This document shows, one piece after another, positions 22,301-29,800 of a stretch of DNA of 64,000 nt. Both the position numbers and the translations under genes were made by a program. The notes below the pieces were generated by a model. It made no database searches and was not told where the DNA came from. It saw nothing but the letters and a program-made list of their open reading frames with translations. The stretch covers positions 4,033,501-4,097,500 of the forward strand of contig NZ_JALJWF010000001.1 of assembly GCF_024168645.1 (NCBI RefSeq). Reading direction: 5' to 3'. This DNA comes from Pseudomonas sp. GGS8. GTDB taxonomy: Bacteria; Pseudomonadota; Gammaproteobacteria; Pseudomonadales; Pseudomonadaceae. Positions within the stretch are counted from its first letter, which is position 1. Each line of letters opens with the position of its first letter.

Positions 22301-25300
22301 GAGAAAGGCGCGCCGCAAGACCTGCGTTTCGGCGAGGTGGCCAGGCATGAGCAAACCAACTACCCGTTGACCCTGGCGGTGAGCCTGGACAGCCGGTTGT
22401 CTGTGCATTTCAGCTATCAGCACCGCCGTTTTGCCACGGCCACCGTGGCGACACTGGCCGCGCAGTTGCGGCACCTGTTGATCCAGATGAGCGCCAGCGC
22501 CGAGCGTTGTCTCGGCGAGTTGGAGTTGCTGGACCAAGCGGAACAGCAACAGCTACTGCGCGACTGGAATCACAACGAAGTCAGTGGCGTCGAGGAACTG
22601 TGCATTCACCAGATGATCGAGCGTCAGGTCGCCGAGCAGCCGCACGCGTTGGCCGTGACCTTCGGCAATCGGCAGCTGACGTATGCCGACATCGACGCGC
22701 GGGCCAATCGCCTGGCGCACAAGCTGATCGAGTGTGGTGTCGGCCCGGAAGTCCGCGTTGGCGTGGCGATGCAGCGTTCCGACCATTTGCTGGTGGCGCT
22801 GCTCGCGGTGCTCAAGGCCGGTGGCGCCTATGTGCCGCTGGACCCGGATTATCCGGCCGATCGCCTGGCCTACATGCTTGAAGACAGCCGTGCCCTGGTG
22901 CTGCTGACCGAACAGGCTGTCGCGGCAACATTGACCGTGACGGCGGGCAGCCAAGTGCTGCTGATGGACGCCGCCGAGCCGTGGCTGGCCGCTTACCCGA
23001 GCAACGCGCCGGTGACTGCGGTGACCCCGGACAACCTGGCTTACGTGATCTACACCTCCGGTTCCACCGGCAAGCCCAAAGGCGTGGCCATCACCCACCG
23101 CAATGTGTTGGCGCTGATGGATTGGTCGCGGTTGGTGTACAGCCGCGACGACATTCAAGGGGTGTTGGCCTCAACGTCGGTGTGCTTTGACCTGTCGGTG
23201 TGGGAGCTGTTTGTGACCCTGGCCAACGGTGGCTCGCTGATCATCGCCCGCAATGCGCTGGAACTGCCGCACTTGCCGGCGCGGGAGCAGGTGCGGCTGA
23301 TCAACAGCGTACCGTCGGCCATTGCCGCGTTGCTGGATGCCGGGCAGATTCCGCCGAGCGTGCGCATCATCAACCTGGCCGGTGAGCCATTGAAGCAGCG
23401 CCTGGTGGAGACGTTGTACCAACAGGCGCACATTGAGCATGTCTACGACCTGTATGGCCCGTCGGAAGACACCACCTATTCCACCTGGAGTCGCCGCGAA
23501 GCCGGCGGCACGGCGAACATCGGCCGGCCGCTCAACGGCACCGCCAGCTATTTGCTGGGGGCCGATCTGCAACCGGCGCCGCTGGGCGCATCGGCCGAGC
23601 TGTACCTGGCCGGTGCCGGCATCACCCGCGGTTACCTGGGGCGTCCGGCGATGACCGCCGAGAAGTTTGTGCCGAACCCGTTTGCCGGCAATGGCGAACG
23701 CATGTACCGCACCGGTGACCTGACCCGTTATCAGGCCGACGGCACGTTGCAATACGTCGGGCGTATCGACCATCAGGTGAAAGTGCGTGGCTTCCGCATC
23801 GAGCTGGGGGAAATCGAAGCCCGCCTGCTGCAGGCGCCAAACGTGCGACAGGCGCTGGTGGTGGCGCATTCGGGCGCGTTGGGTCAGCAGTTGGTTGCCT
23901 ACGTGGTGTTCGACGACCCGGCGCTGGCGCTTGGCGCTGCCTCGACGTTGGCCGTACTACGCGAACAACTCAAGGCGCATATCAAGGAAAGCCTGCCGGA
24001 TTACATGGTGCCGGCGCATGTGCTGTTCCTCGAAAGCCTGCCACTGACACCCAATGGCAAAATCGATCGCAAGGCGTTGCCGAGCATTGATGCCAGCGCA
24101 TCGTCGCGGGACTTTGTCGCCCCGGTCGGCGAACTCGAAGAGCAGATTGCGACGGTCTGGCAGAACGTGCTGGAGCTCGACCGGGTCGGTCGCGAGGATC
24201 ACTTCTTCGAGTTGGGCGGGCACTCGTTGCTGGCGACTCAGGCGGTTTCGCGGCTGCGCAAATTCACGGCCGGTGCTTTGAACTTGCGTGACCTGTTCAA
24301 CCATCCGCGCCTCAAGGATCTGGCGACCTGGATGCGTCAGCAGCAGGACGCGCCTACGACGGGTGCAGGTGCTGGTTCCGTGGCACTCAAGGCCCACGGC
24401 ATCAAGCAACGTGCGCCGCTGTCGCTGGTGCAGCGCCGCTTGTGGATCGCCGAGCAACTGTCCGGCGGCTCCTCCGCCTACGGCATGCCGATGGCGTTGC
24501 GCCTGCGCGGCGAGCTGTCGGTCGAGCGCCTGTTGGGCAGCTTCGCCGAAGTGGTGCGCCGCCATGAAGTGCTGCGCACTGCGTATATCCAGGACGATGA
24601 GGGCGATCCGATTGCGCTGATCGCCGAACAGGTCGAGCTGGATTTCCCGGTGATCGACCTGTCCGGGCTGTCGCGCAGTGCTCAGGAAGAGCAGGTGGCG
24701 CAAGCGACGCTGGACAACGCACGCACACCGATCGGTCTGGAACAGGCGCCACTGTTGCGCGGGCGGATCCTGCACCTGGGGCCGACCGAGCATGTGTTGC
24801 TGTATGCCATGCACCACATCATTTCCGACGGTTGGTCGATGGGGGTTTTGATCAACGAACTGGTGCAGATTTACCACCGTGCCGAGCACGGCGACCTGAC
24901 GCCACTGCCGGCGCTGGAGGTGCACTATTCCGACTTCGCGTTGTGGCAACAGGCGCTCGAGGAACAAGGGATCCTGGGGCAACAGGCCGCGTACTGGAAA
25001 GACCGGCTCGCCGGTTACAGCGGGCAAGTGACACTGCCATTGGATAACCCGCGCGGCCTGACGCCGTCCTATGCGGGCGACGCGGTGCGGTTCCAACTCA
25101 CCAGCGCTCTATCCAGCGCTTTGCGCAAGCTGTCGATGGAGGCGGGCGTCACCTTGTACAGCACGCTGCTGGCATCGTTCCAGGTGCTGCTGCATCAGGT
25201 CAGCGGTGGCGCTGATGTGCTGGTCGGCGCTGACGTCGCGGGCCGTGAGCAGCCGGAGCTTGAACGGCTGATCGGCTTCTTCGTCAACATCCTGCCGTTG

Positions 25301-26833: not shown

Positions 26834-29800
26834 ACGAGGTATCGATGGACGCGCAGGACCAGGGTTACGCCTTGACCCCCGAACAGCAAGGGTTGCTCGA
26901 GCAACTGCCCAAGGCTCCGGCCTGCAGTGATGCGCTGCATTGGCTGGAAGTGGACATTGCCGGTGTGCTTGACCCGCAACGTCTGCAAGCGGCACTGGAT
27001 GCGCTGTTGGCCCGGCAACCGATGCTGGTGCCACGCTTGGCCAAGGCGCCGGGTTTTCATGGCCTGCGCCAGTTCGCCGGGGGCGCCGAACGCTTCCCGT
27101 TGACGGTGCAGGCACGCCAGGCAACGGCGGCCGAGATTGAGGCTCAAGTCGCCGAATGGGCGGCGCGCTCGTTTGTCGCCGGTGAGTCGGAGAACGTTCA
27201 GGCGATGCTCTATCGCCTGGCGGACCGTCACTGGAAACTGCTGCTGGGCGTTGCCCGGCACTGCGTCGATGACAGCGGCTTGCGGCTGATTTATCAGCAA
27301 CTGTTGCGGGCATATGAGCAGGGGCCGGTCGATGACGAGACCGGGGAATTCAGCCAGTACCTGGAATGGCGCAGCGAAGTGGTGCTCGATGAGGATGCGG
27401 CCAGTGCGCGGACTTACTGGCAACAGCACCTGCACGGCGCGGAGGTCGACCTGTCCACCCCATGGCTGGGCTACCGGGTTGCAACCGCTGAAGCCTGCAC
27501 GTCGACAGCGCGGTTGACCACCACGCTTGAACCCGCGCTGCACAACGCGCTGCAGCAGTTGGGAGGCGCGCTGGAACAACCGCTGAAGGTGGTGATGCAA
27601 GCCGCCTGGTGGCTGCTGTTGGCGCGTCTGGGTGGCAATGAACAGATGCTGGTTGGCGTGCGGCACGACAGTCGCGACGATTACGAATATTTCGCCGACG
27701 CCGTGGGGGTTTTCGAGAAAACCCTGCCGCTGCACCTGTCGCTGGCGACGAGCCCCTCGTTCAGCGCCTGGGTCAGCCAACTGGCGGCGCGCCTGGATGA
27801 GCACCGTGCCTGGCAGGAATACTGGTCGCCGGAACTTGCACCCACAGCGGCCAGACCGGCCTATGGTTTCGCGGTCTGGCAGGCACCGCAGCCGGAGACT
27901 TCAAGCGCACTACGGTGGACACCCGTGCAGCGTCCAGCGGCTCGGCAAGCTCAATGTGAATTGCTGCTGCAGCTCGAATCGGGCGAGTCGGGCAACCTGC
28001 ATCTTCATTACGCCGCGCCGCGCTACTCGACTCAAGCGGTCGAAGGTTTGATGGTGCAGTTCAGCGTATTGCTGGCGAGCATCGTCGCCAATCCTCAGGC
28101 CGAGCCGGGCCAACTGGCGTTGCTGGGCACCGCCGAGCAACAGCGCTTGCTGGCAATCAACCCGCCACTGCGGCCACTGGCTGATGGCCGATACCTGCCA
28201 CAGCGCATTGCCGATTGGGCGCATGCCACCCCGGACACCGTTGCGCTGACCGACGCGCAGCAACAGCTGAGTTACGGGCAATTGCAGGCGAATGTCGAGG
28301 TGTTGGCCAAGGCCTTGAAAGCCCAAGGCCTGGCCCGTGGATCGATCGTCGCGTTGGCGTTGCCGCGCTCGGCGGATCTGGTGGTGGCGATGCTGGCGGC
28401 CTGGCGTGTCGGTGCCGCGTATCTGCCACTGGACCCACAATGGCCGGTGGCGCGTCAGGTGATGATGCTGGAACAGGCGGGCGCCGATTGGCTGCTGGTG
28501 GATGCCGCGCAAATCGATCAATGGCACGGTCATGCGCTGAGCGTCTGCACACTGAACCAATTGCTTCAATCGGCGGACCTTTCGGTTCCGGCCATCGAAC
28601 TCGATACGCAGGGCAGCGATGCGGCCTATGTGCTGTTCACCTCGGGCTCCACCGGCGTGCCCAAAGGCGTGGTGATCGAGCATCGACAATTGCTCAATTA
28701 CACCGCCCATGCCAGTCAGGCCCTGGGGCTGGATCAATGCAAACACGTCGGCTTCACCTCCAGCGTGGCGGCGGACCTGGGCAACACCGCGTTGTTTGGC
28801 GCCTTGTTCAACGGTGCGACGCTGCATGTGGCCAGTGACGAGCAGATGCAGGACGGTCGGTTGTTCGCCGACTACCTGAAACAACAGGAGATCGATTGCC
28901 TGAAAATCGTTCCGTCGCACCTCGCGGCATTGCTCGACAGCGACAGCCCGCCAGTGCTGTCCACGCTAATTCTCGGTGGCGAACCGATTGCCCCGGCGCT
29001 GCTTGAGCGTATTGCCCGGTTACGCCGCGATTGCCGGGTGTTCAATCACTACGGCCCGACGGAGGCGACGGTGGGTGTGTTGATTCATCCGCTGGTGTTG
29101 GACGGCGGAATTCAAGCAACTGCCGCCCTCAGTCAGGTGCTGGGGAACAATCAGGTGTACGTCCTCGACGATCGCCTGCAACTGGCCCCGGTCGGGGTGT
29201 TGGGCGAGTTATACCTGGGCGGCGCGCAATTATGCCGTGGCTACGTCAATGCCGAGGCCGACGCGCAGGTGTTCATTCAGAGCCCATTCAACCCTCAGGA
29301 GCGCCTGTATCGCACCGGAGACTTGGCGCGCTATCGCCCGGACCTGGCGATCCAGCTGCACGGCCGGCGCGATCAGCAAATCAAGGTGCGTGGGTTCCGT
29401 ATCGAACTGGCGGAGATCGAGGCCCAATTGCTGAGCCTGCCTCAGGTGGCTGAAGCCCTGGTGTTGCCAGGGGCGACGGCCGAGCAGGGGATGCAAGCCT
29501 TCGTCGTGCCTCATCAGCCCCCTTCGCCGGCCTTGCTTGAGACGGTTCGCAGCGAGTTGGCCCAGCGCCTGCCCGCGGTGATGTTGCCGCAGCAGGTGCA
29601 GTTCATCGAGGGTTTTCCGCGGCTGGCCAATGGCAAAATCGACCGCAAGGCTTTGCAACAACTCAGCGCAAGCCTGGCTGACGACGACGGTCAGGCGCCC
29701 CGCGATGCGCTCGAACAATTGCTCGCGGCTCGCATGGCGCAGTTGCTGGGCGTTGAGCGCCTGGGCATTGATCGGGACTTCTTCGCTGCCGGCGGCCATT

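Follow-up and report, generated by a model that had tools for sequence, protein, structure and literature searches.

We analysed a 64,000-nucleotide stretch of the 6.72 Mb genome of Pseudomonas sp. GGS8 (contig NZ_JALJWF010000001.1, forward-strand positions 4,033,501 to 4,097,500; G000:C1:4033501-4097500 in our survey), referred to here as the window, which is a chromosomal pyoverdine cluster. The window very probably holds an interface-type beta-hydroxyaspartate (OHAsp) module of the pyoverdine assembly line, in which an oxygenase at the end of one protein would act on an aspartate loaded by the next. The proteins concerned are non-ribosomal peptide synthetases (NRPSs), built of condensation (C), adenylation (A), carrier (T) and epimerization (E) domains. 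NRPS2 (13331..26833, on the plus strand, as are all features below unless stated; a second candidate start, an in-frame ATG, lies at 13334) reads C-A-T-C-A-T-E-C-A-T-C-TauD, and NRPS3 (26830..30054) consists of a C-like interface (I) domain, an A domain and a T domain. Stop and start overlap in the four bases ATGA (26830..26833). An earlier note, made from the DNA letters, had described this layout, with NRPS2 ending in C and TauD without a following A domain; reading of the open reading frames (ORFs) and a domain search confirmed it, coordinates included, and the interpretation built on it is partly supported. The module type itself is known. New here are the regular recurrence of the protein break and a match between the genes of a relative and published pyoverdine chemistry.

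The first domain of NRPS3 is an interface domain

The first domain of NRPS3 (26851..28155) matches the Pfam Condensation family at 111.8 bits (residues 11-441) and lacks the HHxxxDG motif that defines LCL domains. Its degenerate C3 motif (27253..27279), A142-R-H-C-V-D147-D-S-G, takes the place of HHxxxDGxS and pairs with H-H-I-I-S-D-G-W-S, both when 56 I domains were aligned and when the set was enlarged to 97. Arg143 stands in place of the catalytic second His, and His144 lies one position downstream. The signature RHCVDDS that the earlier note reported is present at residues 143-149, but its register was one place out, as the second His corresponds to Arg143. Of these 97, none has the catalytic His, all keep the Asp, and nine have His at the first position. 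Because this loss is common to every I domain sampled, the domain in the window is not recently damaged and His144 is not a surviving catalytic residue; a frameshift or sequencing damage as the cause is likewise ruled out.

The domain belongs to the I class, which is already established: I (interface) is listed as a bacterial C subtype in an excerpt of one paper (PMC10212144), and antiSMASH 8 (PMC12230676) includes profiles for interface domains as well as for the beta-hydroxylases of siderophore pathways, with reference to Reitz 2019. In a FastTree phylogeny of 146 C, E and I domains, the I domains form one clade (56/56, support 1.0) and the E domains fall in another (3/3). By sequence, the I domains are thus separate from the LCL, DCL and E types. 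The earlier note had named clustering with ordinary LCL domains as the outcome that would speak against its reading; in both this tree and a larger one (258 domains) the I clade stands apart from them. Ten columns are invariant across 22 diverse I domains, including D147, W180, W197, W260, R266, R282 and G293. The I half of the model of a relative (L082) has a C-fold, with predicted local distance difference test (pLDDT) values mostly above 90; its fold matches include C domains, and the X domain of the X-OxyB complex (4tx3) appears at rank 19. When the PDB was searched by sequence with an I-domain profile, the 60 matches shown, out of 61, all named other NRPS or related enzymes, the best of those shown being the Txo1 C-A protein (152.8 bits). 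One locus, L062 (G287:C4:129400-140400), has about 95 extra residues between the halves of the I domain, with the frame still open.

A condensation domain and a tethered hydroxylase end NRPS2

The condensation domain before the break, C4 (24392..25735), carries an intact HHIISDGWS motif. The earlier note had called it intact, and HH and Asp are indeed kept in 46 of 46 C4 domains. These form a clade of their own, found upstream of TauD: 31/31 with support 0.995 among the 146 domains, and 44/46 with support 0.973 in the larger tree, in which the two outsiders are cyanobacterial. Perhaps C4 is a subtype adapted to the hydroxylated acceptor or to its position.

An Ala/Pro-rich linker of about 46 residues (25736..25873), partly predicted to be disordered, follows C4; in 46 loci the linker is Ala/Pro-rich and spans 45-70 residues (median 49). 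A model of C4-TauD from the window (predicted template modelling score (pTM) 0.57; its alignment depth differs from that of the TauD-I model discussed below, so that the two scores are not fairly comparable) renders both domains mostly well and the linker with low confidence (pLDDT < 50 over 34 residues, model residues 448-481). Such flexibility suggests that TauD is probably held on a leash. The TauD-type Fe(II)/2-oxoglutarate hydroxylase domain itself (25874..26797; PF02668, 164.5 bits, residues 4198-4479) has no A domain after it. Its iron and 2-oxoglutarate residues, namely H4271-x-E4273 (from 26141), the distal H4465 (from 26723) and two Arg, show no variation at any of these positions in an alignment of 102 TauD domains. 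After TauD, only 0-29 residues remain in the 102 proteins.

The protein break is a regular feature

To place the break in context, we scanned 130 stretches (window included; smaller loci nested in larger ones left out). An I domain was present in 101, and removal of three identical I sequences left 98 distinct loci. The loci of the genus survey comprised 30 and 38 further ones that were fetched, with two stretches from another search; genus places left unread were mainly a group of 1260-1340 aa and ordinary C domains. In all 98 loci the I domain is the first domain of its ORF. Going upstream, the first ORF with a recognized domain has TauD at its end in 96 loci, and in 87 TauD follows C within that ORF. 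The four-base overlap with an upstream TGA stop recurs in 65 loci. From the upstream stop to the start of the I domain the median distance is 20 nt, with extremes of -13 and 1024. Given the few residues after TauD and this short gap, space for a separate docking domain is small in most cases. TauD occupies a C-less ORF between the C end and I-A-T in eight loci (L074, L075, L076, L116, L117, L141, L142 and L149). Whether TauD is fused or free, every I domain in our sample stands at the start of its protein.

Database searches covered more ground. A protein search with NRPS3 returned 362 matches; 119 of the 120 listed (the window's own included) are 1044-1082 aa long with precomputed Pfam C-A-T, and the remaining one is a 696-aa fragment. 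This search was limited to 0.55-1.75 times the query length and would miss an I domain embedded in a long chain, which six-frame searches can reveal. The six-frame survey of the genus gave a match at 1e-15 in 101 of 298 genomes, with ordinary C domains among the weaker matches. At 1e-52, matches came from 17 of 249 genomes of a further family in the class (f59), every one in a frame of 1034-1143 aa. Across the phylum, a threshold of 1e-40 gave matches in 30 of 398 genomes, most of them due to ordinary C domains. Matching plasmid records numbered 14, of which we read eight (Variovorax, Azospirillum, Eleftheria, Janthinobacterium, Methylocystis, Nostoc and two of Leptolyngbya).

The split over two proteins is therefore the normal layout for this module type in the genomes examined. 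The earlier note had treated it as a special case; that it is a peculiarity of this strain is ruled out by the 98 loci, and a cyanochelin gene pair has the same layout (see below). In one exceptional locus, L081 (G073:C1:984 kb), the I domain is frameshifted between C-TauD and A-T, which may reflect a sequencing error or a decaying cluster. We did not find the rule of the protein break stated in the literature searched, which did not cover Reitz 2019.

Substrate and predicted product

The A domain of NRPS3 (28246..29409) has the code DLTKIGHVG, and the T domain after it (29665..29868) is the proposed carrier of the hydroxylated Asp. Here and below, we take A-domain codes to specify Ala, Gly, Ser, Thr, Asp or His as read. 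Of the A domains that follow I in the 98 loci, 90 have an Asp-type code, DLTK[IV]GH[IV]G, seven have a DSALIAEVW-type code, presumably His-like (two of them read only in part), and one has DATKVGEVG.

Collinearity supplies a proxy for the product. NRPS1 (963..13334; C-A-T-E-C-A-T-E-C-A-T) has codes for Ala, DGEACGGVT (probably acetyl-hydroxy-Orn, AcOHOrn) and Ala; its stop overlaps the start of NRPS2, as that of NRPS2 overlaps NRPS3, the three genes lying head to tail. NRPS2 has codes for Gly, Ser and Ala. The terminal module, C-A-T-TE (TE, thioesterase), is a separate gene on the other strand, NRPS4 (33838..38013, minus strand; the listed ORF extends to 38232, and the plausible ATG, residue 74, is at 38013), with the Lys-like code DAENIGTVS; no TE match was found in NRPS3 by the domain search. 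In Pseudomonas sp. Irchel s3b2, whose I domain is 83% identical to that of the window, the codes read Ala, DGEACGG, Gly / Gly, Ser, Ala / Asp behind I / Thr, some being read in part. The excerpt of the Irchel study available, including its Table 1, gives pyoverdine 3D19 as Ala-AcOHOrn-Gly-Gly-Ser-Ala-OHAsp-Thr and S3g01 as Ala-AcOHOrn-Ala-Gly-Ser-Ala-OHAsp-Thr, both from Irchel campus isolates (PMC8888394). If DGEACGG loads AcOHOrn, s3b2 matches 3D19 in eight of eight places, a link by collinearity and not by strain, and this places OHAsp at the I module. The earlier note's expectation of OHAsp and not plain Asp at the module is borne out by this proxy.

Read in the same way, the predicted product of the window is Ala-AcOHOrn-Ala-Gly-Ser-Ala-OHAsp-X, where X is coded by DAENIGTVS; this is S3g01 with a different last residue. 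The prediction for residue 7 is beta-hydroxy-Asp, which would bind iron as a bidentate ligand, as would the chromophore and acetyl-hydroxy-Orn, making three in all. Formation of AcOHOrn would need an acetyltransferase and an Orn hydroxylase, and a PF13523 acetyltransferase gene elsewhere in the genome and an Orn hydroxylase at 50796 of the window (Pfam scan) fit this. A reading of DGEACGGVT as Lys was replaced by AcOHOrn on the basis of the 3D19 collinearity and the PF13523 acetyltransferase. For the terminal code, cyclic OHOrn was replaced by a Lys-like residue: DAENIGTVS is close to DAEDNGTVSK, listed for Lys in an excerpt of another study (PMC12195549). The s3b2 counterpart of NRPS4 is 55% identical and has a Thr code in place of the Lys-like one; the terminal module is likely to be a site of pyoverdine diversification.

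The stereochemistry of residue 7 can be predicted from the hydroxylase. In a TauD tree, a clade of 89 of 102 domains (support 1.0) holds the TauD of the window and the CcsFGH-like TauD of Leptolyngbya NIES-3755 (L150); it comprises 88 TauDs with a preceding C and L127, whose upstream part lies outside the sequence available. The other 13 are self-standing TauDs, including CcsK (L149), and lie apart. We also observed that Asp modules mostly pair with the C-fused clade, and that modules with His-like codes (L074, L075, L076, L116, L117 and L142) pair with the self-standing TauD clade. Excerpts of the cyanochelin B paper assign 3S to NRPS-fused and 3R to self-standing hydroxylases, and expect an L-threo residue at CcsI, citing Reitz (PMC12628792). 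The window's TauD falls in the NRPS-fused clade, whose 3S grouping rests on one reference enzyme, the CcsFGH-like TauD, and the domain search found no E domain in NRPS3. Together these make L-threo-beta-hydroxy-Asp the most likely residue, as the best prediction from sequence. OHAsp in the Irchel pyoverdines is defined as threo in the excerpt of that study (PMC8888394).

Proposed working and alternatives

We propose that the A domain of NRPS3 would load Asp onto its own T domain, and that TauD, swinging on its flexible linker from C4, would hydroxylate the carrier-bound Asp at C-beta. That hydroxylation occurs on T-bound Asp is stated in an excerpt of an earlier study (PMC8949500). C4 would then join the chain ending in Ala6 to the hydroxylated Asp, if we infer the order of the two steps correctly. 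The I domain sits where the module's own C domain would be and most likely offers a surface that docks the C4-TauD end beside the carrier, so that it would hold or position the oxygenase.

We compared distance matrices (mirror trees) across the 40 loci in which all five domains are present. Correlations are r 0.84-0.95 among C4, TauD, I and the A domain after I, and 0.59-0.78 between these and the upstream A domain. These correlations indicate inheritance as a block and, if anything, a pairing of C4 with I rather than of TauD with I.

Several results weigh against the proposed working or are neutral towards it. Within the same 40 loci, TauD-I correlates at r 0.84, below TauD-C4 (0.88) and TauD-A (0.89); no specific co-variation of TauD and I was found (r -0.02 with the A domain controlled), and C4-I keeps r 0.74 with TauD controlled. 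An AlphaFold model of a TauD-stop-I chain reached a pTM of 0.59 with no confident docking and a poorly modelled TauD half, and speaks neither for nor against docking; its alignment had only four rows for the TauD half, since with larger TauD sets the I rows were misplaced by MAFFT. The I domains stay together in the larger tree (97/97), but support falls to 0.36 once divergent and cyanobacterial members are added. In L073 (G257:C8), an exception to the usual neighbourhood, the upstream neighbour ends in C and there is no adjacent TauD; its I-A-T protein has a His-like code and continues into a tail of 292 residues. The genome has TauD genes elsewhere, and on a different contig there is a 378-aa frame with a TauD that is 46% identical. 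L139 has about 1 kb between its TauD and I frames. As to stereochemistry, the TauD embedded in VarG (variochelin) gives erythro-hydroxyaspartate in an excerpt of its description, contrary to an equation of fused with threo (PMC10999976), and two potashchelin enzymes are assigned oppositely in the abstract and the introduction of the corresponding paper, as far as its excerpt goes (PMC7100376).

A first alternative sees I chiefly as a docking domain between subunits, bringing NRPS2 and NRPS3 together for chain transfer, with the proximity of the oxygenase incidental. Its position at the protein start in every locus, the absence of another obvious docking element in the 0-29 residues after TauD, its retention in the eight loci with TauD in a C-less ORF, and the residual C4-I correlation all speak for this. 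However, the NRPS1-NRPS2 break in the same cluster has no I domain, and an Asp or His-like code follows I in 97 of 98 loci, which is not required of a general docking device; we consider the alternative unlikely. Somewhat less doubtful, though still tentative, is a combined reading in which the break is obligatory: the I domain would act only in trans, as both the oxygenase platform and the sole subunit-docking site, and the TauD-I contact would join NRPS2 and NRPS3 instead of dedicated docking domains.

The remaining alternatives have far less in their favour. A functionless, decayed remnant of the module's original C domain could have lost its catalytic His, would be expected to change fastest (mean identity is 33% for I, the fastest-changing domain of the block, compared with 67% for TauD in the 40 loci), and might be frameshifted as in L081; but the frame is open in the other surveyed loci, L062 included, the ten columns noted above are invariant in 22 members, and persistence across Pseudomonadota and Cyanobacteriota is unexpected of a remnant, which makes this very improbable. 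That the domain is an ordinary LCL domain with a variant motif, still forming bonds, could draw on the Pfam score and on the C-fold of the relative's model. The missing His, the grouping apart from LCL, DCL and C4 domains and the intact C4 that already precedes it lead us to reject this as far as sequence allows, and we give it almost no credence. Equally implausible is that TauD, covalently part of NRPS2 and adjoining the Ala6 module, modifies another residue, such as Ala6 on the last carrier of NRPS2, leaving plain Asp at module 7: 3D19 and S3g01, as given in the excerpted Table 1 (PMC8888394), carry Ala6 and OHAsp7, matching the codes of the relative and, bar the last residue, those of the window.

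Other genes of the cluster

The setting is that of a pyoverdine synthetase, with a TonB receptor, pvdO/N/M-like genes (names that we presume from the Pfam families), the Orn hydroxylase and efflux genes co-located by Pfam family. The FpvA-like TonB-dependent receptor (30294..32876) lies downstream of NRPS3. Elsewhere in the genome (G000:C1 6.596-6.607 Mb), a 4407-aa frame with three NRPS matches is taken to be a PvdL-type NRPS; some 3 kb separate the PF13523 acetyltransferase from the closest of the matched places in this frame. Sequences of the form TAAAT-N16-CGT, which resemble PvdS boxes, occur at 43636, 50050 and 50782 of the window, just upstream of a frame at 43666, a minus-strand transporter frame ending at 49941, and the Orn hydroxylase. 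With N15-17 allowed, the pattern has five matches in the window compared with 1.18 expected; the window scan found no exact match before NRPS1. At 56166-60041, a LuxR-type response regulator adjoins a hybrid sensor kinase whose domains include Hpt and, in two stretches, solute-binding.

Significance and comparison with known systems

Beta-hydroxyaspartate makes siderophores photoreactive and is among the iron ligands in pyoverdines. A structure that would explain how the hydroxylase finds its one carrier out of many is still lacking, as the PDB search with the I profile indicates. In our sample, the regularities (I starting its protein, little room for docking elements, and the C4 clade upstream) amount to a simple rule for genome annotation. 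C-TauD and I-A-T can be treated as one block, which raises the question of what joins the two proteins.

Reitz et al. reportedly described, in PNAS in 2019, an interface domain paired with siderophore Asp and His beta-hydroxylases. Like that of the window, the Reitz-type domain is a member of the C superfamily without the catalytic His, directly precedes an Asp A domain and has a TauD-type partner; we found no difference beyond sequence divergence. The X domain of glycopeptide synthetases (4tx3, X-OxyB) can be likened to I as a C-fold that binds an oxygenase in trans. It recruits P450s near the chain end and sits before TE, not before an A domain, and by sequence it is no closer to I than ordinary C domains are.

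Among siderophore systems, the cyanochelin B pair CcsFGH / CcsI (AP017310.1, gene names matched by position; excerpts of PMC12628792) has the arrangement of the window, in that C-TauD ends one protein and the next is I-A-T without E. It differs in being part of a cyanobacterial polyketide synthase-NRPS lipopeptide pathway, in lacking the four-base overlap and in a TauD that is 53% identical. Potashchelin PtcB of Halomonas, according to an excerpt (PMC7100376), likewise has a C-terminal TauD fused after C that acts on the Asp of the adjacent module, and differs from the pyoverdine of the window in that its product is a lipid siderophore. Closest to the predicted product are pyoverdines 3D19 and S3g01, as excerpted (PMC8888394), which share OHAsp at position 7 after Ala6 and end in Thr, whereas the last module of the window has the Lys-like code DAENIGTVS.

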